DNA from: a virus
DNA: 28,785 nucleotides
Virus record (IMG/VR): IMGVR_UViG_3300009413_003176
Span: 1-28,785 of that record
Strand: one strand, 5' to 3'
In this document: in pieces, positions 2,038 to 19,055 of the stretch
How positions within the stretch are numbered: position 1 is the stretch's first letter
Layout of the letters: each line of letters begins with the position of its first letter
Notes under the pieces: generated by a model
The model's input: only the letters and a program-made list of their open reading frames with translations
Told to the model about the DNA's origin: nothing
Database searches by the model: none
Program-made: the position numbers and the translations under genes

Positions 2038-2803
2038 TCACCTGCTACCGCCCAACGCCACTCCCCAAGAGCGCGCCGTTAGCGAAACGCTCAGCCGCAC
2101 CGACACTATTAATGTGCCCATTCGCGCCTTGTGGCGGCCAAACGATTGTCCTGCCCACTTACTCCCCTGGCTGGCCTGGGCGCTCTCGGTGGATGAGTGG
2201 GATGAACAGTGGAGTGAGCAGCAAAAGCGCGAGGCCATTGCCACGGCGGTCTACCTGCACCGGCACAAGGGCACGAAAGCCGCCGTGCAGCGAGCGATGC
2301 AGGCCATCGGGCACGACGCGCATATCAGCGAATGGTTTGAATACACCGGCCGTCCCTACACCTACCGGTTGGAAATGGCCTCGCCATTTGTCAGTCAGGC
2401 CGACTTCAACCGCCTGATTCGGCATATCACCACCGCAGCCAACGCACGCTCCTGGCTGGAAGTGATTACCCAACGCCACACACTTTCACAACGGTTGACG
2501 CTCGCCACAGTAACGCAGCAGGCACAACGCACCACCTTCAGCCTACCGCCGCCCCGTTTCCACCTTGCGGAAAGCCACACCTATGCCGCCAGCGCGGTGC
2601 ACAGCGCCCATGTGGCCACCTTGGGGCTACCCGCCTGGGCAATCGCCGATCAACAGCACGCCATCCACTGGCGCGGGGCTTACCACACCGCTCGACAAAC
2701 CAGCATCCGCCTAGACATTCAGGTCGCGCTAACACCGCAGCCGTTGCGGCACGCCTGTATTCACCAAACAGCCACCACGACCACCATTAAAGAGGAACCC
2801 TAA
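2030..2803 (+). CDS. I: Tail protein I
   Basis: The product is about 257 residues from the ATG at 2030, chosen because MANHLLPPNATPQERAVSE is the usual beginning and GTGAGG lies just upstream; an earlier in-frame ATG at 2006 lies deep inside J. Residues 1-170 match the P2 gpI tail-protein family (NVPIRALWRPNDCPAHLLPWLAWALSVDEW, then HRHKGTKAAVQRAMQAIG). gpI connects the baseplate to the tail fibres. It is about 80 residues longer than P2 gpI (about 176), with a His-rich beta-type C-terminal extension that may match the unusual fibre encoded next. Its stop overlaps the fibre start. Confidence 0.9.
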   Translation: MANHLLPPNATPQERAVSETLSRTDTINVPIRALWRPNDCPAHLLPWLAWALSVDEWDEQWSEQQKREAIATAVYLHRHKGTKAAVQRAMQAIGHDAHISEWFEYTGRPYTYRLEMASPFVSQADFNRLIRHITTAANARSWLEVITQRHTLSQRLTLATVTQQAQRTTFSLPPPRFHLAESHTYAASAVHSAHVATLGLPAWAIADQQHAIHWRGAYHTARQTSIRLDIQVALTPQPLRHACIHQTATTTTIKEEP

Positions 2804-5451
2804 TGGCTGACTTCCCCGGACTAAAACTCACCGATGCAGGGCGAGAGCTGCAAGCCAAAGCCCAAACCGGCCAACGCCTGGTGTTTACCCGCGTGGGCTT
2901 GGGCGATGGCGCCGCCCCTGAATCCCTCGGGCCACTCACCACGCTGATCAACGAACGGCAATCCCTCTCCATTCAGCACCAGGAAGCCCCAGGCGATGGC
3001 ACCGCCACGTTGCGGGTTATCCTCACCAATGAGGGCCTGGAAACCGGCTTCTTTATGCGTGAAATGGGCGTCTACGCCGAAGACCCCGATACCCAAGAAG
3101 AAATCCTCTACAGCTACACCAACGCAGGCGAGCACCCGGATTTTCTCCCCGCCTCGGGCGGTGCCACCCTGGTGGAGCAAATCTTTAACCTGGTCACCAT
3201 CGTGGGGGATGCCGAGAACGTCACGGCAAAAATTGACGACTACATCACCATTGCCCTGAAATCTGAAGTCGACGCCCTAGCACCCTACGTACTGCCCAAG
3301 GCGGGCAATGTGGGGCAGATGGTGCGCAAGGCCAGTAATGCCGAGGGTGACACCGAATGGTTCGACCCCGAGCTAGACAACTTCGACGTCCGCCTCACCA
3401 GCATTGAAGAGCCACGCACGGCGGTCGCCAATCAACGCACCTTCACCCTGCAAAAAACGCTGACCAACGGCCTCGCGGTGTACATCAACGGCGAGCGTAT
3501 TTCGCGTGAACGCTGGGCCGCGATTTCAGCGACCCAGCTGCAGCTTAATGATGCGCTCGAAGCGGGCACGCGGGTGCTGTTCGTCAACAACGAAGAAGCG
3601 GGACCCGGTCGAGCGCTGAATGTCTCGCTCAACGGCCCCACGCTGGTGTTCCCTGGGCAATCCAACACCTACACACTCAGCGACTACGATGCCTTTGCGG
3701 TCTACACCCTGACTACAACCGTGGGCACGGTTAGCCGCGACGGCGCAACCATCACGCTGACGGTGCCCAGCGAGGCAACTGACGAAACGCTCGACCTATC
3801 GGTGACCCGTGACAACGTCCGCGCCGTGTTTCGCGTCGCGGTGGGCGATGCCGCGATCGCCACGCCAGAGATCACTTACCCGGCCAACGCCGCGACCGGG
3901 GTCGACTTTGAGCCGGATTTATCAGCGACGTCGTTCCTCGCTTACCCCGATGAGTATGACAGCCACGTCAACACCCAATGGCAGGTGGCCACGGATAGCG
4001 GCTTTACAAACATCGTGTTCGATAGCGGCGACGACACCGCCAGCCTCAACGCCATCAATCTCGGTGCACAGGGCATCCGCCTGGAAAGCGCTACGCGCTA
4101 CTATGTGCGTGTGCGCTACAAAGGCGCAACGCTAACGTCAGAATGGTCGGATGTTATCTACTTCAACACCGCGCTGATCTACGTGCGACAGCCGCGCATC
4201 ACCGCGCCGCAGGACGGCGAAGCGGGCATTGTTGAGCAGCCAACATTCCAGAGCGATGCCTTCAGCGTTTACGGTGCCAGCGATACGCAGGTAGCAGCAG
4301 ATTGGCGGCTGCTCGATGCCAGCGGCAACACCGTGTGGGAATCGCTCAATGATGCCGAGAACCTGACCAGCATCACACCGCCCAAGGGCGTACTGCAGCC
4401 AGGCGAGATCACCTACCAGATCAAGGTACGCTATCACGGCGCCGAATACGGCAGTTCGGAATGGTCGCCGGCGATCACGTTCGTTACCGCCGCATCATTC
4501 GTTTTCGCTGGCGGCCTGGCCTATGTGTCGAGTGATTCGCCCTTCCTAGAGGTTGTGGATGACACGCTGGGCGGAACCGTTACGTCAGCAATCCAGTACC
4601 CGCCGAATTTTGATTCAAGGGCCGTCGCGTTTTCGCCGTCTGCCAAGCTTCTTGCCGTGGCGACCCGTGGTGCAGCCGCAGATTCCCAGGTCATGGTTTA
4701 TAACACAGTGACCTGGGAGCGTGTTTTTCATGACACCTATGCAATGGATCACATCCAGGGAATAAAGTTTTCGCCTGACGAGAAGTATTTGGCTTATATC
4801 AGCGGGGTAAATAATGTCGGCGAGTTCCGGGTCATCAAGACTGCTGATTTCCCAAGTCTGAGAACCGCCTATTCATCAGACACTCTGATCGCTGAAGAGA
4901 TTTACAGCTTAGCGTGGTCGCCGGACGGCCAGTATTTAGCGTTTGGTCATGAGGGTGATCCAGGACTGACAGTTTTAAACACATCAGACTGGTCTGTTGT
5001 TTCAGGAACCCCTGCGCTACCTATGGCCGCCTTCGCCGTTATCGTCCAGGGCCTGGAATTCTCGCCGGACGGACAGTATCTGGCTGTCGGCTATGATCAG
5101 GACAAGTGCTTTGTACTTATCGATGTTGCAACATGGACGATTGTTTCTGGCACGCCAGATCTTAGTGCCAGCTATATGGTGCGGGAGCTAGCATGGTCAC
5201 CTGACTCTTCGCAGATAGCCATGCACACCAATAGCACTTTCGCTGTTTACAATATCAGCGACTGGTCTATCGAATATGAGGATAGCAACGGTGGTTATGG
5301 TGTTGGCTATTCACCGGATGGGAATTACCTAGCATATGGTTCATATAACCCATTTTTGAAGATTCTTAATATTGCCGATTGGACGTTAGTTCCCGGGACA
5401 TATACCCCGAGCTACTACGTTAGCGATTTGCAATGGTCACCTGTCAGCTAA
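2803..5451 (+). CDS. H: Tail fibre protein with WD40-like propeller tip
   Basis: This 882-residue protein is in the P2 H position. Residues 1-150 are the baseplate-binding tail-collar fibre domain (MADFPGLKLTDAGRELQAKA, then GFFMREMGVYAED). Residues 150-350 hold linker and beta-structured segments. Residues 353-562 are two fibronectin-III-like repeats of about 105 residues each, both ending in a WSD/WSP...F(N/V)T pattern. Residues 567-882 carry seven SP-motif strands (Ser at 611, 657, 706, 754, 799, 837, 879), spaced 38-49 residues apart and mostly followed by [DS]xxxLA. This is what a seven-bladed WD40-like propeller shows, closed by pairing the final strand with residues 570-585. Typical P2-like fibres do not end this way. 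The DNA becomes less GC-rich in the propeller, which suggests a swapped receptor-binding tip. The fibre role is firm; the propeller is read from sequence only. Confidence 0.88.
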   Translation: MADFPGLKLTDAGRELQAKAQTGQRLVFTRVGLGDGAAPESLGPLTTLINERQSLSIQHQEAPGDGTATLRVILTNEGLETGFFMREMGVYAEDPDTQEEILYSYTNAGEHPDFLPASGGATLVEQIFNLVTIVGDAENVTAKIDDYITIALKSEVDALAPYVLPKAGNVGQMVRKASNAEGDTEWFDPELDNFDVRLTSIEEPRTAVANQRTFTLQKTLTNGLAVYINGERISRERWAAISATQLQLNDALEAGTRVLFVNNEEAGPGRALNVSLNGPTLVFPGQSNTYTLSDYDAFAVYTLTTTVGTVSRDGATITLTVPSEATDETLDLSVTRDNVRAVFRVAVGDAAIATPEITYPANAATGVDFEPDLSATSFLAYPDEYDSHVNTQWQVATDSGFTNIVFDSGDDTASLNAINLGAQGIRLESATRYYVRVRYKGATLTSEWSDVIYFNTALIYVRQPRITAPQDGEAGIVEQPTFQSDAFSVYGASDTQVAADWRLLDASGNTVWESLNDAENLTSITPPKGVLQPGEITYQIKVRYHGAEYGSSEWSPAITFVTAASFVFAGGLAYVSSDSPFLEVVDDTLGGTVTSAIQYPPNFDSRAVAFSPSAKLLAVATRGAAADSQVMVYNTVTWERVFHDTYAMDHIQGIKFSPDEKYLAYISGVNNVGEFRVIKTADFPSLRTAYSSDTLIAEEIYSLAWSPDGQYLAFGHEGDPGLTVLNTSDWSVVSGTPALPMAAFAVIVQGLEFSPDGQYLAVGYDQDKCFVLIDVATWTIVSGTPDLSASYMVRELAWSPDSSQIAMHTNSTFAVYNISDWSIEYEDSNGGYGVGYSPDGNYLAYGSYNPFLKILNIADWTLVPGTYTPSYYVSDLQWSPVS

Positions 5452-5463
5452 CGGAGGATAGTC

Positions 5464-6045
5464 ATGCACGCAGCAATTATTGACGGTTCGCCGCGGTTTT
5501 ATCCACGGCTGCCGAAACGTTTGGAACATGAAGTGGGGGAGACGATTTTCCCTGCGACGGTCACCGGTTGGCAGTATGACCAGCGACTGACAGAGCGCCT
5601 GGCACCAACATGGCAGCTTGACGATGGCGTCCTGCATATCGCATACCAGCACCGGCAACGACCTTTAAAAGAGGTTCGCGAGACACTGCTCGCCAATCTC
5701 GCCGACCACCGCTGGCGAATCGAAACCGGCGGCGTCGAGCTACCCAACGGCGCTCGCATACTCACGGATCGGGAAAGCCAGGCGCAGCTCACTAGCGCTT
5801 ATCAATCGCTCAGCATGCCGTTTGTAGAGTCGATTGATTGGAAAGCCGCCGATGGCTGGGTCACCGTCACCGAAGCCGAGCTGCGCCCCATCGCCCAGGC
5901 GGTGGCGCAGCATGTGCAAGGCTGCTTTAAAGCCGAGCGCCAAGTCAGCGAACAGATCGCAGCGGCGGAGAGTGCTGAGGCCTTGTATGGGATAGATATT
6001 GCTGGAAAGTTTGAGGAAGCGCTAAGGGATATCAAAAACGTCTGA
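5464..6045 (+). CDS. Putative tail fibre assembly protein (DUF4376-like)
   Basis: This 193-residue protein lies 12 bases after the fibre gene behind a strong GGAGGA site, in the position of P2 gene G (fibre assembly chaperone). Residues 75-115 read RWRIETGGVELPNGARILTDRESQAQLTSAY, the pattern of DUF4376, a domain common in fibre-associated proteins. The C-terminal 50 residues are helical and may be a coiled coil. Such proteins are thought to help fold or attach the fibre tip. It is not a clear gpG homologue, so the chaperone role is inferred from position and domain. The last 24 bases overlap the end of the convergent membrane-protein gene. Confidence 0.75.
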   Translation: MHAAIIDGSPRFYPRLPKRLEHEVGETIFPATVTGWQYDQRLTERLAPTWQLDDGVLHIAYQHRQRPLKEVRETLLANLADHRWRIETGGVELPNGARILTDRESQAQLTSAYQSLSMPFVESIDWKAADGWVTVTEAELRPIAQAVAQHVQGCFKAERQVSEQIAAAESAEALYGIDIAGKFEEALRDIKNV

Positions 6046-6927
6046 TTCTCCAGCAGTCCGCTCATTTGCGGGCTGCTCGCGTGCACCAAAAAGCTTACCA
6101 AGCTCATAAAACCCTAATTTCCTCTCATCTTGACTGTACTTAACTGCTTTACTTACCCTAAGCAAACGGTGAGCATTATGCACAGTATCGTTAACGCCTT
6201 TACCAATAAGAAAAGCTAAAAAGCACTCAACGTAAAACCAATAGGTTTCCCCGTCCACATTTGCCTTATTTGAAAGCTGCGCATCAACAAAAGCGAATAA
6301 TTTTTGATCTATACTTAGCTGATCCATCAAAAATGAAATCAAGTTTCCTGACTGCCCAAAAACTCTATTTACATAGTTTTTTAAATCATCACAACATCCA
6401 GGGTTTTTATTTAAAAAGACAATCACTCTACTTGGATGCTGATAAAAAGAGCCACATGAAAAAACATTTGAAGAGCTATAGCTCTCAATCATAAAATCGC
6501 CTAAAACATCACTTTCATAAGGATGCACATCCTCATTAAGACTTCTTGAAAAAGACTGAAGCAATAGAGGTAAGACATCTTTTAAATTGAGATATGCTTG
6601 CTGAACATCATTTCCTTTCTCAGTCAAACGTAGCTGCTCTTTTGCTACTGACAACTGCTCTCTTTGCTCTTCAAGCATTTCATCTTGGCTGATAAGAAGT
6701 TTCTGTTGTTGACGCAATGTAATCACAAAAGCTATCAATGTCGCTACCACCGCAGCCACACCCACAGTACCTGAAAGATAGGTCGCAAAATCTGCCCACT
6801 TTCCTGTGTCATTTGAAATAGGCAGCTCCCTAAAATTCCAAGCATAAGCCCCTACTGCGAGAATCGCCACTATCAGTACTACAAAACCCAACATCCCAAA
6901 ACTATGCTTTTTAATCAAATAAATCAT
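6022..6927 (-). CDS. Membrane protein with coiled coil, AbiC-like layout
   Basis: This 301-residue protein starts at 6927 behind TAAGGG. Residues 10-30 and 47-71 are strong membrane segments, joined by a short periplasmic loop. Residues 72-105 are a charged, Gln-rich coiled coil (RQQQKLLISQDEMLEEQREQ). The remaining 195 residues are a soluble cytoplasmic domain. The order W-x-D-F-x-x-Y-x-x-G, second membrane helix, then Q-rich coiled coil resembles putative phage abortive-infection (AbiC-type) proteins; that is a resemblance, not a proven match. It is AT-rich, reads against the tail operon, and follows another membrane-protein gene by 41 bases, so the two probably form an operon. The position equals the P2 Z/fun accessory site. 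Likely job: superinfection exclusion or abortive infection. Confidence 0.72.
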   Translation of the reverse strand: MIYLIKKHSFGMLGFVVLIVAILAVGAYAWNFRELPISNDTGKWADFATYLSGTVGVAAVVATLIAFVITLRQQQKLLISQDEMLEEQREQLSVAKEQLRLTEKGNDVQQAYLNLKDVLPLLLQSFSRSLNEDVHPYESDVLGDFMIESYSSSNVFSCGSFYQHPSRVIVFLNKNPGCCDDLKNYVNRVFGQSGNLISFLMDQLSIDQKLFAFVDAQLSNKANVDGETYWFYVECFLAFLIGKGVNDTVHNAHRLLRVSKAVKYSQDERKLGFYELGKLFGAREQPANERTAGESDVFDIP

Positions 6928-6968
6928 ACCAAAAACCCTTACGATAATTTAAAAAACCACATAAACTC

Positions 6969-7496
6969 TCAACTGTAATTATCTCGAAATTTTTTAACTG
7001 CTGACTCAGCCTCCCCTCGTTGCACCGTGCATCTTAGAAGCTCATGCCCGTCTTTATTATTAACAATAGCATCTATATGCCTATTAACGCTCCTCATTAC
7101 ATCATATACACCCAAGTCAATACTTGCCACTTCATACCCATACTGCTCCCAGCACCTTATATCTAAACTACTTACATAGGCGTTATGAAGACCGACATTA
7201 ATACTTATGTTTCCATTAACAGGCTGACTGGCTCCCTTATCAATTAAATTCTCTAAAATAACCACATTCGACTTCATTTCATTCTCGATAGCTGCTTGCA
7301 TATTTTTTAGCCTTTTCCACTTACTGGCCATTGGATATAAAAGTGCAACAGCTACAGCTAATAGTGATCCTAATGCCTGAAACCATGCTGCACTCCATTG
7401 TGAGTAGTGCCAGTGGCTAGTCTCTGGTGCAAAAATCGATAAAGAGATCAAGCAAGGTACACCACCTACTAACGCAAATTTCACCCAATTATTCAT
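6969..7496 (-). CDS. Small membrane protein, partner of the AbiC-like gene
   Basis: This 175-residue protein is the first gene of the leftward pair. Residues 5-24 and 36-56 are predicted membrane helices; the second (AAWFQALGSLLAVAVALLYPM) is followed by a basic stretch and then a soluble domain of about 115 residues. No known domain is recognised. AT content is much higher than in the flanking tail genes, which suggests recent gain. Both proteins of the pair have an N-terminal double membrane helix and a cytoplasmic C-terminal domain, so they may form one membrane complex. Function is inferred only from position at a phage accessory-gene site. Confidence 0.7.
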   Translation of the reverse strand: MNNWVKFALVGGVPCLISLSIFAPETSHWHYSQWSAAWFQALGSLLAVAVALLYPMASKWKRLKNMQAAIENEMKSNVVILENLIDKGASQPVNGNISINVGLHNAYVSSLDIRCWEQYGYEVASIDLGVYDVMRSVNRHIDAIVNNKDGHELLRCTVQRGEAESAVKKFRDNYS

Positions 7497-7545
7497 CCCA
7501 ACATTCCCTTAGCAGTCATTTCCTCGCACCTTACCACACCCACCA

Positions 7546-7565
7546 TGTAAACCACCCCACTTACA
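7546..7565. promoter_or_regulatory. Candidate late-activator site before the sheath operon
   Basis: A perfect dyad, TGTAA-N10-TTACA, lies 97 bases before the sheath start in the only large gap of the tail region. P2 late promoters bind Ogr at a TGT-N12-ACA dyad about 55 bases before the transcript start. This one has the same ends but N14, two bases longer. Position fits; spacing does not match exactly, so the call is tentative. Confidence 0.35.
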
Positions 7566-7662: not shown

Positions 7663-8847
7663 ATGGCACTCGATCAATACCACCACGGCGTGCGCGTTGC
7701 GGAAGTCAACGACGGCACGCGTACCATCCGCACCGTCTCCACCGCCGTGATTGGCGTGGTCTGCACCGCGCCGGATGCAGACGCCACCACCTTCCCCCTT
7801 AACCAGCCCGCGCTGGTCACCAATGTGGATACCGCCATTGGCAAAGCGGGCACCCAAGGCACGCTGAAAGACACCCTCACCGCCATTGGCCAGCAGGCCA
7901 AGCCGATCATCGTCGTGGTGCGCGTGGATGAAGGCATCGACGCCGATGAAACCACCGCCAACGTGATTGGCACCACCACGGAGCTAGGCCAGCGCACCGG
8001 GCTGCAGGCGCTACTCACCGCCAAGCAGAAGCTGGGCGTCACGCCGCGCATTATTGGTGTGCCTAACCTGGATACCCAGCCGGTGGCCACCGCCATGGTC
8101 GCGGTGCTGCAGCAGCTGCGCGCCTTCGGTTACGTGTATGCCCACGGCTGCGAGACCATCACCGAGGTCACCGCCTACCGCGACCAGTTCGGTGCCCGTG
8201 AGCTGATGGTGATCTGGCCCCAGTGGCAGGCGTTTGATACCGACGACGCGCAAACGCTGGATATCAGCCCCGTGGCCATCGCCCTCGGCCTGCGCGCCAA
8301 ACTCGACCAAACCGTGGGCTGGCACAAAACCCTGAGTAACGTGGCGGTGAACGGCGTCACCGGCATCAGCAAAGACGTGTTCTGGGATCTGCAGAGCCCC
8401 AACACCGATACCGGGCTGCTCAACGCCGCCGATGTCACCACGCTAGTGAATCAGAACGGCTATCGCTTCTGGGGCTCGCGCACCTGCGCCGGGCCAGAAA
8501 GCCTCTTCCCGTTCGAGAATTACACCCGCACCGCCCAGATCCTCGCCGACACCGTGGCCGAAGCGCACCTGTGGGCGGTGGATTTGCCCCTGCACGCTTC
8601 CCTTGCGCGAGACATCATCGAAGGCTTGAACGCCAAGTTCCGCGAGCTGAAAACCCTGGGGCTGATTGTCGATGGCAGCGCCTGGCTGAACGAGGAGCTC
8701 AACACCCAGACCTCCCTCAAGGGCGGCAAGCTGCGCATCGACTACGACTACACGCCGGTACCGCCGCTGGAAGACCTCGGTTTCCAGCAGCGCATCACCG
8801 ACTCCTACCTGGCCGACTTCGCCGAGCGCGTCGCGGCCACCGCCTGA
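7663..8847 (+). CDS. FI: Major tail sheath protein FI
   Basis: This 394-residue protein is the contractile sheath subunit, almost the same length as P2 FI (about 396). The beginning, DQYHHGVRVAEVNDGTRTIRTVSTAVIGVVCTAPDAD, is the classic sheath start. Residues 255-300 contain GYRFWGSRTCAGPES, the conserved core motif of sheath proteins, and the C-terminus carries DYDYTPVPPLEDLGFQQRI. A strong AGGAG lies upstream of the ATG. It is the first gene of the FI-D operon after the leftward cargo pair. Confidence 0.96.
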   Translation: MALDQYHHGVRVAEVNDGTRTIRTVSTAVIGVVCTAPDADATTFPLNQPALVTNVDTAIGKAGTQGTLKDTLTAIGQQAKPIIVVVRVDEGIDADETTANVIGTTTELGQRTGLQALLTAKQKLGVTPRIIGVPNLDTQPVATAMVAVLQQLRAFGYVYAHGCETITEVTAYRDQFGARELMVIWPQWQAFDTDDAQTLDISPVAIALGLRAKLDQTVGWHKTLSNVAVNGVTGISKDVFWDLQSPNTDTGLLNAADVTTLVNQNGYRFWGSRTCAGPESLFPFENYTRTAQILADTVAEAHLWAVDLPLHASLARDIIEGLNAKFRELKTLGLIVDGSAWLNEELNTQTSLKGGKLRIDYDYTPVPPLEDLGFQQRITDSYLADFAERVAATA

Positions 8848-13936: not shown

Positions 13937-13959
13937 AAAGCCCCATTTATTGGGGCTTT
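13937..13959. terminator. Bidirectional terminator between D and the cargo pair
   Basis: AAAGCCCC (13937-13944) and GGGGCTTT (13952-13959) form a perfect 8-bp stem with a seven-base loop, A-rich before and T-rich after. It lies between convergent genes and includes the stop codon of the leftward one, so it can end both transcripts. Confidence 0.85.
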
Positions 13960-14825
13960 GCTAGTGCAGCACTTTTCTTTTGCTCACGTATTTGATCGCG
14001 TCTGACTTTGTGAGCAATGATCGCATCCACATGCCTGATCAGTCGACCTTGCCATACACCCACACCTCGCATGAAGTGCTCAGGCCAATGAGGTGACTCA
14101 GGTATAGTTGAAAGAAAAGGGTAAATAAGAGAGGGGTACTGCGCTAATACACTCCGTGTATCTTTATGCCTTGATATATCGCGATAAACATACTTTGCAT
14201 AATTAAGGGCAGGCCGCCTAGCATCTGGGTCTGAGAATATTTCAAGTGCCTGATTATGCAGATCTTCACGCACAATTCGGCACAAGACTTCTGTACGTAC
14301 TAGCTCGCGCTTAACAGCGATCGGCCTCATACGCCTGTGTTTCAAATTAGCGATGCGCGTCCATAACAGTGCGGCTGGATTTAAAACATAAAAACGTAGA
14401 ATTTCTTTACCGTCTTGATGTAGATCCCACTCTACAAGCCTTGCCGCAGCGCGCATGCTATCAGCATCAAACCCACCATAAACCTGGTTCATAACGTCTA
14501 CTACGAAATGCCCGTCAGCCAATATTTCTGGGCGGTAGAGCTCTATCAATGCCATGTTGGGTACATGGTCGTCTGGCGTAGGGAAGCGTGGCACTCCTTT
14601 CCACTGATCTGCTAATACCCTGACCCCTTCAATCGTTCCGGCAACAATGTCGAGATCCGATGAAGTCAGCGCAGCGGTGTGTTCTTGATCTAACTGCCCT
14701 TCCAAAAAATAAGCACCCCAAAAAGCAATCGCCTGGCCTCCAATGAGTACCAGGCGTTCTTGATATTCGGGGGGAAGCTCTGCAATAAGTTTTAGAATCG
14801 GCTGTATTGAAAGGCTATCTTCCAT
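13947..14825 (-). CDS. Nucleotidyltransferase-like protein, probable toxin
   Basis: This 292-residue protein carries the minimal nucleotidyltransferase signature: LIGGQAIAFWG with Gly29-Gly30, then SSDLDIV with Asp57 and Asp59. The GG...(S/T)xDxD arrangement is seen in AbiEii- and MenT-type toxins that transfer nucleotides to tRNA or protein. After residue 150 it is mainly helical and basic. It reads against the tail operon and follows a 63-residue gene by 38 bases, an arrangement of antitoxin then toxin. Ribosome site is weak (GTGAG). The fold call is fairly good; the toxin role and target are inferred. A housekeeping nucleotidyltransferase is unlikely inside a prophage. Confidence 0.68.
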   Translation of the reverse strand: MEDSLSIQPILKLIAELPPEYQERLVLIGGQAIAFWGAYFLEGQLDQEHTAALTSSDLDIVAGTIEGVRVLADQWKGVPRFPTPDDHVPNMALIELYRPEILADGHFVVDVMNQVYGGFDADSMRAAARLVEWDLHQDGKEILRFYVLNPAALLWTRIANLKHRRMRPIAVKRELVRTEVLCRIVREDLHNQALEIFSDPDARRPALNYAKYVYRDISRHKDTRSVLAQYPSLIYPFLSTIPESPHWPEHFMRGVGVWQGRLIRHVDAIIAHKVRRDQIREQKKSAALAKPQ

Positions 14826-14863
14826 CCAAACTCACTGCAGACAGGTCACAAAAATAGATAAGC

Positions 14864-15055
14864 TCAGAGCGGCGCAGGAGCCGGAGCACCACGAATAATA
14901 CGGGCATGCTGACGAGCGCCCTTGAACTGAGAAGCACGTTCAATCGCTTCCTGAGAAACAAGCATTTCTGCATATTCTTGGAAACGGTTGCGCTCTTTCT
15001 CTTGAAGACGTAGCACGAAACCATTTTTTTGATTTGCGCTGATATAAGAAACCAT
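14864..15055 (-). CDS. Small basic protein, probable antitoxin
   Basis: This 63-residue protein starts at 15055 behind GGTGAAA; a longer in-frame start at 15106 would run into the hairpin and looks less likely. The sequence reads MVSYISANQKNGFVLRLQEK and then a charged helical part (ERNRFQEYAEMLVSQEAIER). No classical HTH is seen. It precedes the nucleotidyltransferase gene in the same direction, and a perfect palindrome covers its promoter region. Small size, gene order and operator suggest an antitoxin that represses its own operon; this is inference. Confidence 0.6.
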   Translation of the reverse strand: MVSYISANQKNGFVLRLQEKERNRFQEYAEMLVSQEAIERASQFKGARQHARIIRGAPAPAPL

Positions 15056-15079
15056 GATTTTCACCAGTAAAATCAGTTG

Positions 15080-15094
15080 GTTATAGAATATAAC
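15080..15094. promoter_or_regulatory. Palindromic operator before the toxin-antitoxin pair
   Basis: GTTATA-GAA-TATAAC is a perfect 15-bp inverted repeat 25 bases upstream of the small gene. On the leftward strand it includes -10-like bases (TATTCT or TATAAC). This placement fits autoregulation by the upstream protein or the pair. Confidence 0.55.
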
Positions 15095-15097
15095 ACT

Positions 15098-15154
15098 TGG
15101 CACCATGCGAAGCGCTAAGCTTTCTGCGAAAGCTTAGCGCTTCGCATGGTGCCA
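15098..15154. repeat. 57-nt near-perfect hairpin (27-bp arms, 3-nt loop)
   Basis: Arms 15098-15124 and 15128-15154 are exact reverse complements, joined by TGC. The arm begins TGGCACCATGCGAAGCGC. Such a long perfect stem with a triloop is far more than an ordinary terminator and has no T tract. It lies between the promoter of the leftward pair and the end of the UmuD-like gene. Its role is unknown: it could be a structured RNA, a protein-binding cruciform, a mobile-element remnant, or a palindrome made by template switching. Confidence 0.9.
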
Positions 15155-15211
15155 GTCAATAATATTTGTCTATGTTCGTTCATATTAAGCGATATTTCTA
15201 TACTTAGCAAA

Positions 15212-15236
15212 CCCCCAGCCATTCCATGGCCGGGGG
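15212..15236 (-). terminator. Hairpin downstream of the UmuD-like gene
   Basis: CCCCC (15212-15216) plus GCCA (15218-15221) pair with TGGC (15227-15230) plus GGGGG (15232-15236), with one mismatch. Read leftward it ends in GGGGG followed by TTTGCT, a plausible if weak terminator for the leftward gene ending at 15362. Confidence 0.45.
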
Positions 15237-15361
15237 CATCAGTGCCGCAATCTTCTGGCGAGGCGGTTCCGCAACGCGTGCTTTTAGACGACACCATCAC
15301 TATGGCAAATCCGCTCAGGCAATGATGTAAGCCATTGACCATAAAGCTTGTAAGCGATCTC

Positions 15362-15712
15362 TTACAACGCCCAGCACCGCGCCTGCCTGACCACCACCCC
15401 GCGAAACTGCTTCGCGGTGATGAAGCACCCCTCCCCACCCGTGGGCGGCAACAAGCGGCAGCGGCTGCCGACGCGGTGGGTTTTGAATAATCGGTACTCG
15501 CCTTCTACCTCCGCCACCACCAGATCGGCGTGGCCATACGAACGCGCTTCGTCCACCACCAGCACATCGCCCTCCATCCATGGCCCACCGGGGTGCGCCT
15601 CTTCGCTGATCTCCACCAGAAAACAGGTCGGCGGAAATTTTCGCCGGTCCATCTCCGCCACCGCCGGGTGCTTCACTCCCACCACGGCAGGCCCCAAGTA
15701 GGTCACTCGCAT
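15362..15712 (-). CDS. UmuD/LexA-like protein lacking the catalytic serine
   Basis: This protein is about 116 residues from the ATG at 15712, chosen for the AGGG site upstream; an earlier in-frame ATG lies at 15805 inside the SOS box. The C-terminal fold of the S24/UmuD family is recognisable: EGDVLVVDEA, then GHADLVVAEVEGEYRLFKTHRV, and the closing FRGVVVRQAR. In active members a Ser-Met pair lies about eight residues before the GD; here that stretch is HPGGPWME, with no serine. It therefore probably does not cleave itself, and may act as a UmuD'-like partner or a degraded gene. It diverges from a umuC remnant across an SOS box. The family call is moderate; the lack of Ser is seen directly. 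Confidence 0.65.
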   Translation of the reverse strand: MRVTYLGPAVVGVKHPAVAEMDRRKFPPTCFLVEISEEAHPGGPWMEGDVLVVDEARSYGHADLVVAEVEGEYRLFKTHRVGSRCRLLPPTGGEGCFITAKQFRGVVVRQARCWAL

Positions 15713-15784
15713 GCTGTTGCCCTGTGCTAGCTCCATATTCAGCGACGTATATGAGCGTTTGCCTGTCGCCTCCCTAATTTCTAA

Positions 15785-15804
15785 TACTGTATAAACGAAC
15801 AGCA
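15785..15804. promoter_or_regulatory. SOS box (LexA-binding site)
   Basis: TACTGTATAAACGAACAGCA has the CTG-N10-CAG core and closely follows the gammaproteobacterial LexA consensus. It lies between the divergent UmuD-like gene and the umuC remnant, 24 bases before the umuC ATG. It should place both under SOS control and now also reads toward the inserted island. Confidence 0.85.
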
Positions 15805-15828
15805 TTTAACAAGGGTTAAGGAGGCAAC

Positions 15829-15963
15829 ATGATCGGGTTAGTGGACTGCAACAACTTCTACGTGAGCTGCGAGCGCGTGTATAGTACAAACGAATGCTAC
15901 ACCTACGCTTTCGGTGAGGTTCGTACAGTTACAAAGGCGTACCTTGCTTCACGAGCAGGCTAG
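15829..15963 (+). pseudogene. umuC: umuC remnant (first 18 codons, then foreign sequence)
   Basis: Translation from the ATG at 15829 (behind AAGGAGG) gives MIGLVDCNNFYVSCERVY, the invariant start of UmuC-type Y-family polymerases, with Asp6 of the active site and the NNFYVSCE motif. After Tyr18 (about 15882) homology ends and the frame runs into AT-richer sequence and stops at 15961-15963. A full gene would need about 420 codons. The break marks the left edge of the AT-rich island. Either the island was inserted here with loss of the rest of umuC, or a deletion joined the two. Confidence 0.8.
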
Positions 15964-16259
15964 TAAAAAGAGATTTCATGTGGGTTATCAAAGCTAACAA
16001 AGCTCAATGAAAAATGATGCTGCAGTTCGTAATCACAAGCTATGTCAGTGGCACTCATCCGCAAGCAGAAGATTCGTTGTTCCAAACGATTTTTCGCCCG
16101 ATCCAGGTTAGCACTCACTAACAAGCACATTACAAAAAAAAGTAAATATTTGATTTTAATGAACTATTTTCATTTTTCTAACAAAATTCTTAAACAAATG
16201 GATCTAGGATGATCACAATGGTATGATAATGCATATTGAGCATACGCTGGAGAGATAGA
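15960..16259. other. Gap between the umuC remnant and the methyltransferase
   Basis: About 300 bases hold no convincing gene. A leftward 56-codon frame (16130 to 15960) is open but lacks a ribosome site; its product is not recognised. The part from 16131 is very AT-rich. TATGAT at 16222-16227 could be the -10 of a promoter for the methyltransferase operon, with only a poor -35 (TGGATC, 17 bases earlier). Confidence 0.4.
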
Positions 16260-17135
16260 ATGGATTTTTTCATCACTAACGATGATTGCACTAAAACCAT
16301 TAGCAACATCGAAGATGACTCTCTCGATCTGACACTTACTTCTCCGCCATACTGCATAGGTAAAGCTTATGATGTGCACACGACGATCGAGGGATTCAAA
16401 GAAATTAATGAACCTGTTATAGAGGCTATATATAACAAGACAAAGCCTGGCGGAGCAATTTGTTGGCAGGTTGGCCATCATGTAACAAAAGGTGAAATCA
16501 TTCCCCTAGACTTTATAGTGTATGAAATTTTCAAACGAGTTTGCCCAGATGTAAAATTGCGAAACAGAATAGTTTGGCACTTTGAACACGGTGCCAACTG
16601 TAGAAATAGATTTAGTGGACGTCACGAGACAATTCTTTGGTTTACTAAAGGCGAAAATTATTATTTTGATCTAGATTCAGTCAGAGTAAAGCAAAAATAC
16701 CCTGGCAAGAAATATTATAAAGGGTCTAAAAAAGGAGAGTATAGCTGCAACCCTTTAGGTAAAAATCCTGGAGACCTTTGGTCTATACCAAACGTAAAAT
16801 CAAATCATGTGGAAAAAACCGCGCACCCTTGCCAATTTCCAATTGGGTTAGCACAACGCATTATAAGAGCCCTTAGCCCCAAAGGCGGTATGGTTTTTGA
16901 CCCTTTTATGGGTTCTGGTAGCACTGGTGCTGCAGCAATACTCGAAGATCGAAATTTCACTGGTATTGAGCTTGATACAAAATACTTTGAAATCTCAAAG
17001 GAACGATTGACGTTGGCAAAGAAAGGTCTGCTGAGATATCGTGATATCGAAACACCAGTTTTTGATCCCGCAAAGGCTGGATCAGTAGCCAAAGACCCAA
17101 TTAAATTTAAACCTACTCAGGAGCCATCACTATGA
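16260..17135 (+). CDS. DNA methyltransferase, beta class (m4C or m6A)
   Basis: The product is 291 residues from the ATG at 16260, chosen for GGAGAG five bases upstream. The catalytic motif IV is TSPPY at residues 27-31, close to the N-terminus, and the S-adenosylmethionine site FDPFMGSGST is near residues 213-222. The order IV, target-recognition region, I defines the beta class. SPPY is common in N4-cytosine enzymes but also found in N6-adenine ones. LEDRNFTGIELDTKYFEIS follows the AdoMet site as expected. All key residues are present, so it should be active. No restriction enzyme is recognised beside it; instead it overlaps a DGQHR gene by four bases (ATGA). The low GC contrasts with the phage backbone. 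It could be a solitary mask for phage DNA or the marking part of a defence system. Confidence 0.88.
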   Translation: MDFFITNDDCTKTISNIEDDSLDLTLTSPPYCIGKAYDVHTTIEGFKEINEPVIEAIYNKTKPGGAICWQVGHHVTKGEIIPLDFIVYEIFKRVCPDVKLRNRIVWHFEHGANCRNRFSGRHETILWFTKGENYYFDLDSVRVKQKYPGKKYYKGSKKGEYSCNPLGKNPGDLWSIPNVKSNHVEKTAHPCQFPIGLAQRIIRALSPKGGMVFDPFMGSGSTGAAAILEDRNFTGIELDTKYFEISKERLTLAKKGLLRYRDIETPVFDPAKAGSVAKDPIKFKPTQEPSL

Positions 17136-18169
17136 GTAATAACAAACTTCGCGTACCTGCTATTCAGCTAAAGCAAAGTGGCACTAATTTATACGTTTTC
17201 TCAATGCCAGCAAATAAGCTTTGGGACATATGCGAGATCAATGAAAAAACAGAAGACAAGGACGACGGCTATCAACGAGCACTTTCAAACTCACGAGCTA
17301 CCGATATTAAAAGATACATTCTAAAGGGAAATGCTATAGCTCCAGCGATCATCATTTCTTTTAATATTAAAAAAGCAGAATTTGACTCTACAACAAACGA
17401 GTTAATCATAGAAGATACCTCAAATGCTGGCTGGGTGATAGATGGTCAACACCGTCTTAGAGGTGCAGATCTAGCCAGCACTGAAGATACAAATATTGAG
17501 CTTGCGGTCGTGGCTTTTTTAGATTTAAAAATTGAAGAACAAATTCAGCAATTTGTAACGATAAACCGAGAGGCTAAAGGAGTTCCCACATCTTTATATT
17601 ATGATCTTCTCAAGCAGCTACCTATAAAATCTAGCACCGATGTAGCGAAAGAAAAAGCTGCAGCAATTGCTGATGTCCTTAGAAAAGATCCAGAGTCCCC
17701 ATTTTATGAGCGGATTGTGATTGTCACTTCTCCTAAAAAGGGAGAAATTTCGTTGAATAATTTTGTGCGAAAAGTATATCCATTAGTAGCTGATGAAAAA
17801 GGCCTATTCAGCTCTTATTCTCAGAAAGAAGTTACTATTATAATAGATAACTTTTTCCGTGCGCTCAAAAGCGTTTACCCAAACGAATTCAGCCATAATA
17901 AACAACGCTTTTTCCAAACCTTAGGATTTGGAGCAATGTTAAACTCTTTGTACCCAACATTCTCCTTGGTTTTAAAACAAGAACAGGCTTTTAGGATACC
18001 CGATATTGAAAAAGTTTTAAGCAAAATTTCTGACTTCAGCTTTTCGGATTGGGACAGAATTGGCAGTGGCACCCAAGCGGAAAAGCAGGCAGGTAGAGAT
18101 TTTGAGACTACTCTTAAAGCGGCCTGGAGCGATGAAAAGTCACAAGAAGGCAGCTTGAGGTTATTTTGA
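17132..18169 (+). CDS. DGQHR-domain protein (DndB-like)
   Basis: This 345-residue protein contains the diagnostic DGQHR at residues 104-108 in GWVIDGQHRLRGADLA. Such domains occur in DndB (regulator of phosphorothioation genes) and in related proteins of DNA-modification and defence clusters; their biochemical action is not well settled. Residues 45-60 (DGYQRALSNSRATDIKRYI) and IEEQIQQFVTINREAKGV at about 140-158 are further family-like segments. The C-terminal half is helical. It starts inside the stop of the methyltransferase gene behind AGGAG, so the two are co-translated. No dndC/dndD/dndE or other phosphorothioation gene is present, so it works in a different setting here. Confidence 0.82.
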   Translation: MSNNKLRVPAIQLKQSGTNLYVFSMPANKLWDICEINEKTEDKDDGYQRALSNSRATDIKRYILKGNAIAPAIIISFNIKKAEFDSTTNELIIEDTSNAGWVIDGQHRLRGADLASTEDTNIELAVVAFLDLKIEEQIQQFVTINREAKGVPTSLYYDLLKQLPIKSSTDVAKEKAAAIADVLRKDPESPFYERIVIVTSPKKGEISLNNFVRKVYPLVADEKGLFSSYSQKEVTIIIDNFFRALKSVYPNEFSHNKQRFFQTLGFGAMLNSLYPTFSLVLKQEQAFRIPDIEKVLSKISDFSFSDWDRIGSGTQAEKQAGRDFETTLKAAWSDEKSQEGSLRLF

Positions 18170-18170
18170 T

Positions 18171-19055
18171 ATGCTACCCAACACTTTGAAAAGAAGCATA
18201 CCAAGTAGAGACTGGAGTATTCTTAAGAGGGAATGGCGTGCAGCCTTTGTTGACTATCATGACATAGGCGCTTCCCCGAATAGCTCAGTAAAAGATATTG
18301 CGCAAATGAATGAGTCATTGTTAGTTCATTCAAGAACATCGACTCCTATACAGTTCACTGCTGCTAGTCTAAGAACAACTGCTTTGCGAGAAGCAATATT
18401 TTTAAGTCATAAAGCTGGAGCTTTATTACGAAGCTTCAACAGAGACCTGGAAAACAGGGAAACAACTTATCCAGAAATCACAGCCTATACTGCAGCTTAC
18501 TTTCTTTCAAAGTCCATTAGCTTATTATTAGGATTATGGATGGGCTCAAGAAGAATAAATAACCGATTTTGGCTTTTCGACATGGCTGGTCACGGCGCCT
18601 CTAAAGCTGAGGTTTATGGGGTTAATTGTAATACAATAGGCCACGTACATTCTTGGGATTTATGCAAAAAAAGCTTACATGGCCTGACTGCTAGTCCTCT
18701 TGATGGGGGGCTACTATCTTTTTGTGGAGGATTAGCGGCAGAAGACTTTGCAAGATTAAGAAATAGCCTCCAGTATAATAGTCGCGAATGGCTATATGAA
18801 GACCTTCATGCATTTGATTCAGCAGATATTAACTGGCTAACTGACTTCGATAAGAGTATTTATACTAATGCAGATCCCAACGACGAGGCATGTCATTTTG
18901 GTGTATGCATATTTTTAATGTTATTTAGAGCTAATTTTAGCTTGATATCTGACATAGCCAAAGGTATAGACACTCTTGAGGCTGAAGTAGCAAAAATAGC
19001 TGAAAACATACCTCAATGCAATGGCGTAATGAAACTAAACTCCTGGATAAAATAG
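18171..19055 (+). CDS. Unknown helical protein with HEPN-like features
   Basis: This 294-residue protein is the third gene of the operon, starting one base after the DGQHR stop. It is mainly helical. Residues 105-121 (AYTAAYFLSKSISLLLG) resemble the AYYAA...aralLL helix of HEPN domains, and residues 193-203 (FARLRNSLQYN) resemble their LR-x-x-A-x-Y helix. The typical Rx4-6H nuclease motif is not clear: the stretch has R197-N198 and Y202 but no well-placed His. It may therefore be a non-catalytic HEPN, a diverged RNase, or a different fold. No membrane segments or known nuclease motif are seen. Its tight linkage suggests that it is the effector or a structural partner of the system. Confidence 0.75.
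   Translation: MLPNTLKRSIPSRDWSILKREWRAAFVDYHDIGASPNSSVKDIAQMNESLLVHSRTSTPIQFTAASLRTTALREAIFLSHKAGALLRSFNRDLENRETTYPEITAYTAAYFLSKSISLLLGLWMGSRRINNRFWLFDMAGHGASKAEVYGVNCNTIGHVHSWDLCKKSLHGLTASPLDGGLLSFCGGLAAEDFARLRNSLQYNSREWLYEDLHAFDSADINWLTDFDKSIYTNADPNDEACHFGVCIFLMLFRANFSLISDIAKGIDTLEAEVAKIAENIPQCNGVMKLNSWIK

Follow-up and report, generated by a model that had tools for sequence, protein, structure and literature searches.

Variable two-helix membrane proteins as candidate anti-phage cargo in the gpG-FI slot of a P2-like phage

Why should the tail genes of a P2-like phage be interrupted by two leftward, AT-rich genes, and what might their products do? We examined this question in a 28,785-base IMG/VR virus record (the window, meaning the whole stretch of DNA analyzed), whose genes follow the P2 order V, W, J, I, H, G, (A, B), FI, FII, E, T, U, D, where A and B denote the two leftward genes. 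Window genes without a Pfam scan were named by position and size. On the 3' side of D, an AT-rich island is followed by the genes for a repressor of the S24 type, a replication protein with a Toprim domain, and an integrase. Since the nearest relatives of the FI tail sheath protein are encoded in Vreelandella, Halomonas, and Chromohalobacter genomes (86 to 94% identity) and also in a Vreelandella boliviensis phage, we infer a Halomonadaceae host for this P2-like prophage. A record labeled "Bacillus phage vB_BpuM-ZY1" (OR820920.1; locus L248) encodes a sheath that shares 96% identity with the one in the window phage, and this host label looks doubtful.

Gene A (positions 6022 to 6927, minus strand, 301 amino acids) and gene B (6969 to 7496, minus strand, 175 amino acids) both start with ATG. 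They occupy a slot bordered on the left by a gpG-like tail fibre assembly gene (DUF4376; 5464 to 6045, plus strand) and on the right by the FI tail sheath gene (Pfam Phage_sheath; 7663 to 8847, plus strand). An earlier note on this DNA had described two leftward, AT-rich genes between the fibre-assembly gene and FI, a 24-base convergent overlap with the former, and a double membrane helix in both products, and all of these features were recovered. The open reading frames are exactly as described, their GC content is 0.37 to 0.40 versus about 0.58 to 0.64 in the flanking tail genes, gpG and A converge with a 24-nt overlap (6022 to 6045), and hydropathy identifies two transmembrane (TM) segments in each protein (residues 9 to 27 and 53 to 71 of A; 5 to 23 and 35 to 53 of B). 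The gap between B and A is 41 nt (6928 to 6968, minus strand) and ends in an AAGGG ribosome-binding site that closely precedes the start of A; the two genes are probably cotranscribed. Other metagenomic contigs encode near-identical A and B proteins (99 to 100% identity), and in diverged homologues the open reading frame, the N-terminal motif, and the location are retained, so we regard both genes as real.

The first TM helix of A is followed by a short outer loop with a WADFATY motif, the second TM helix, a coiled coil extending to about residue 117, a variable helical domain (residues 119 to 284), and a tail (284 to 301) read through the gpG terminator hairpin. An AlphaFold model of A (12-sequence alignment, pLDDT 78) comprises TM1, a single long helix from 41 to 117 in which TM2 runs into the coiled coil, and the helical domain from 119 to 284. 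B consists of TM1, a second TM helix with a WSAAWFQALGS motif, and a variable cytosolic part; its model was poor (pLDDT 49) and too low to use. Basic residues that precede TM1 in A and follow TM2 in B weakly suggest that both ends of the proteins face the cytosol.

The earlier note had also placed these genes at the Z/fun accessory site of P2, and the P2 record bears this out: fun(Z) lies leftward between G and FI, is followed by the activator site and the start of the F operon, and is annotated as a nonessential lysogenic conversion gene that blocks T5. The note's statement that P2-like phages carry anti-phage genes at such sites agrees with published work, in which the fun locus is named as a second site where defence genes are enriched in the P2-like prophages of E. 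coli (Vassallo et al. 2022, PMC9519451). To compare the G-FI interval across relatives, FI served as the query for retrieving 80 loci from genomes and 80 from viral contigs, among which 38 distinct loci encoding a closely related sheath were scored for leftward open reading frames of at least 90 amino acids directly left of FI. Such cargo was present in 32 of the 38, with a median GC content of 0.46 versus 0.64 for FI (p 1e-13). The slot was empty in three relatives with a 96 to 98% identical sheath (L152, L157, and L158), in which the gpG stop, a hairpin terminator, and the FI leader follow one another. Given that close relatives carry empty or differently filled versions of the slot, A and B are not conserved tail genes. 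The gpG-FI slot is thus a cargo hotspot that is variable and dispensable among these relatives.

The cargo falls into many unrelated clusters, including singletons. The A family accounts for 12 members (one pair representing the same lineage), a soluble family of ~198 amino acids for 11, the B family for 6 (four of them distinct), and acyltransferase-SGNH proteins for 5. The soluble family (e.g., L163:5243-5833 and L047:8568-9164), the second commonest cargo, occurs alone or with A or B and had no Pfam or PADLOC match. An AriA/OLD-like ATPase is a singleton in L025, and L028 carries acyltransferase-SGNH surface modifiers. Since cargo without a recognized link to defence (lipoprotein_16, DUF1508, and sulfatase) is also found in the slot, position alone is no proof of a defence function.

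The borders of the slot suggest how its contents could be exchanged. A leader (7497 to 7555, minus strand; about 55 nt leading up to the B start codon) is near-identical ahead of unrelated cargo, namely, B in the window, A-type genes in L135, L137, L142, and L156, and a soluble 196-amino-acid protein in L163. A scan of this leader for sigma-70 promoters performed no better than on shuffled sequences, and no convincing promoter was found. Upstream of FI lies a conserved dyad, (A/G)TGTAA-N10-(T/C)(T/C)ACA (7545 to 7565; GTGTAA-N10-TTACAC in the window), and a matching element, GTGT-N14-ACAC, precedes gene V of the other late operon in relatives. Based on a comparison of its position with the P2 pF activator site, the dyad is probably a late-activator (Ogr-type) box. 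On the opposite side, a terminator-like hairpin behind gpG (6052 to 6077; z = -3.3) lies inside the A reading frame, and an equivalent hairpin stands directly behind gpG in the empty-site relatives. Flanked by a terminator to its left and a candidate late promoter to its right, the cargo would sit between the end of one tail operon and a self-contained start of the next and could be replaced without harm to either. The gpG terminator hairpin and the 3' end of gpG encode the last ~18 residues of A in the window, whereas A ends 9 to 67 nt short of gpG in L135, L137, and L141. Because A overruns the hairpin here but stops short of gpG in those loci, the earlier proposal that A joined this site later gains support.

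Homologues of A were then sought in 275 Halomonadaceae genomes. Scanning the genome contigs with the single A sequence returned nothing, whereas a profile search did find homologues; strong ones (E below 1e-30) were present in nine genomes, and all directly adjoin FI. A search across the order outside the family gave only weak matches to the N-terminal module. Among 19 A-family sequences, the N-terminal ~90 residues were about 35 to 86% identical in all pairs, whereas for the C-terminal domain many pairs had no detectable similarity, and most of the others were 18 to 35% identical. The N-terminal module of the L137 protein, for instance, is 76% identical to that of window A, and the C-terminal domains of the L137 and L142 proteins have no detectable similarity to that of window A. 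By sequence, A is therefore a family specific to this slot, with a constant two-TM/coiled-coil N-terminal module and a hypervariable, sometimes replaced, C-terminal domain. The B family exhibits the same constant/variable pattern, albeit in a small sample of four.

A near-identical phage in metagenome 3300030392 (L004 and L005) has A split by an insertion sequence with a 418-amino-acid transposase-like open reading frame. We had considered DNA inversion as a switch for the C terminus of A, based on a reversed A fragment in L004, but this insertion sequence explains the fragment better.

Database searches with A and B yielded no match above cutoff in PADLOC, Pfam, or NCBIfam (best PADLOC E value of 0.013, at 12 to 14 bits), and no SLATT match, indicative of a SLATT-type two-TM effector, was listed for either protein in Pfam or PADLOC. 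Fold searches with the A model had no PDB or BFVD match at an E value of ≤0.001, and a sequence search of the PDB had no significant match.

The earlier note had further described the larger protein as having an AbiC-like arrangement with a coiled coil. Pfam putAbiC (PF16872) is an 80-residue C-terminal domain, and putAbiC proteins of related bacteria have, in addition, a pair of TM helices at the N terminus. Full-length profile-profile comparison of the A family with putAbiC proteins gave a probability of 97% (E value of 8.5e-11), which raised the possibility that A is a full member of that group. When the two halves were tested separately, the signal was confined to the N-terminal module: this module alone matched at 97.7% probability (hhalign, E value of 1.8e-12), versus 0.3% for the C-terminal part, while the controls for the N-terminal comparison scored 0.4 to 6% (reversed) and 0.4% (B family). 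PF16872 had no Pfam match in A up to an E value of 1, and B compared with putAbiC proteins at 4.2% probability. Thus, the AbiC-like description stands for the N-terminal half with its coiled coil but not for the putAbiC domain, which HMM and profile comparisons did not find in A; at the level of sequence profiles, the N-terminal module of A is homologous to the membrane module of putAbiC proteins, and the defining domain was not detected.

Some diverged Halomonadaceae proteins with this N-terminal module do carry putAbiC (L122 and L127). Defence genes lie beside such diverged proteins in several loci, namely, HEC-06 (L127), PsyrTA (L128), and retron II-A with PD-T7-5 (L129); since the neighbours scanned were picked as operon-like and AT-rich, this is an association rather than a measured enrichment. 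In the last case (L129:5738-9774), an A-type N-terminal module protein lies beside the RT and NDT genes of the retron and a PD-T7-5 homologue.

Taken together, these observations lead us to favour, with some confidence, the reading that A and B are accessory lysogenic-conversion genes, most likely encoding anti-phage proteins that the prophage expresses by way of the shared leftward leader. An anti-phage role is favoured by the fun(Z) slot and orientation, the defence enrichment of this locus in E. coli, and the replaceable AT-rich nature of the cargo, as well as by the constant/variable architecture, the putAbiC homology of the N-terminal module, and the defence genes beside N-terminal module proteins. 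That the lysogen expresses these genes, that they protect it, that the C-terminal domain acts as the sensor, and that the effect is exerted at the membrane are our inferences. A would probably be an inner-membrane sensor-effector in which a single rigid helix leads from the TM helices into the cytosolic helical domain. Because the C-terminal domain evolves fast, its partner may itself be changing and could, for example, belong to an incoming phage; binding could then be signaled via the TM2/coiled-coil helix to the membrane, which would be permeabilized, or the cell would be arrested (abortive infection) or entry blocked. Since the N-terminal module is homologous to putAbiC-annotated proteins, abortive infection through membrane action is our preferred mechanism, with entry exclusion as its main rival.

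Superinfection exclusion at DNA entry would have A and B block genome injection without killing the cell, as Imm- or SieA-type proteins do, with the variable cytosolic end selecting a tail or tape-measure protein. This mechanism would suit small, prophage-borne membrane proteins with variable ends, and it has a parallel in SNIPE, a membrane-anchored system that encounters the tape measure protein while DNA is injected and has a part that varies and probably sets specificity (PMC13190303). However, the homology of A is to proteins annotated for abortive infection rather than to known Sie proteins, and Pfam finds no nuclease domain in A or B, so we rate exclusion as possible but rather unlikely. 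A role in host interaction or surface conversion unrelated to phages, or passive AT-rich cargo, would fit the lipoprotein, DUF1508, and sulfatase genes found in the same slot; given that relatives of the N-terminal module lie in defence islands and that the pairing of a strongly conserved module with a hypervariable domain suggests an arms race, this appears improbable. Despite their place inside the tail gene cluster, A and B are hardly credible as tail or virion assembly genes: they lie on the opposite strand, are missing from close relatives and replaced by unrelated genes in others, and in a near-identical metagenomic contig A is broken by an insertion sequence.

Whether the favoured anti-phage proteins would work as a pair is a related question, as the earlier note had called them a two-gene module. 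The genes are adjacent on one strand with a short gap and a similar two-TM layout, as might be expected of an obligatory two-component system such as a toxin-antitoxin or sensor-effector pair. They occur together only in the window lineage and in L027, however, whereas A without B is its commoner state (e.g., L008, L029, L156, L214, and L137) and B without A is found in three cases (L047/L168, L164, and L132). This distribution argues against an obligatory module, and since each gene occurs without the other, A and B are separate cargo genes that form no fixed module. Where A stands alone, it uses the same leader as B in the window. Nor did profile comparison, which detected no similarity between them, support the two as paralogues. 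A two-component system is accordingly very unlikely, and A and B probably each act alone. More tentatively, and at well under even chances, A may represent a new family of single-gene prophage defence proteins resembling a receptor repertoire, in which a conserved putAbiC-type membrane module is combined with exchangeable cytosolic recognition domains. Recombination within one slot, across the common leader and conserved module, would diversify the family, such that P2-like phages of the Halomonadaceae swap specificities while keeping the effector.

The closest kinds of system are already known. Like the P2 fun(Z) slot (PMC9519451), the window slot lies between G and FI, holds leftward genes upstream of the FI late promoter (a predicted one here), and is variable and dispensable; it differs in its Halomonadaceae host, in its cargo families, and in the common cargo leader and unoccupied sites that we describe. 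The old/tin anti-phage hotspot of P2-like phages is likewise a cargo hotspot but lies elsewhere, cos-proximal between gpA and gpQ (Rousset et al. 2022, PMC9122126). A resembles putAbiC proteins in size (about 280 amino acids) and in its homologous N-terminal module and differs in its hypervariable C-terminal domain. SNIPE resembles A as a membrane-anchored single-gene defence with a variable part, although this part is N-terminal in SNIPE and C-terminal in A, and SNIPE has a DUF4041 DNA-binding domain and a nuclease, neither of which Pfam finds in A or B. A constant-anchor/variable-end family at this slot in Halomonadaceae was not found in the literature searched. With the window slot, the fun/Z defence hotspot would extend from P2 of E. 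coli to P2-like phages of halophilic bacteria. The slot also offers one candidate defence protein in many natural versions, with the same membrane module and leader and different C-terminal domains. This natural domain-swap series could address what putAbiC-type proteins sense and what their membrane module does, subjects on which the literature searched held little.

Two other features of the window deserve mention. The gpH-like tail fibre protein (882 amino acids; 2803 to 5451) ends in a WD40/PD40-type beta-propeller (about residues 600 to 880), a tip that seems unusual for a P2 fibre. The second AT-rich island (13947 to 19055), between gene D and the repressor, encodes an N4/N6 DNA methyltransferase (16236 to 17132, plus strand), a DndB/DpdB-like protein (17132 to 18166, plus strand), an unknown 294-amino-acid protein (18171 to 19052, plus strand), and a 292-amino-acid protein on the minus strand, and is possibly a modification-based defence locus.
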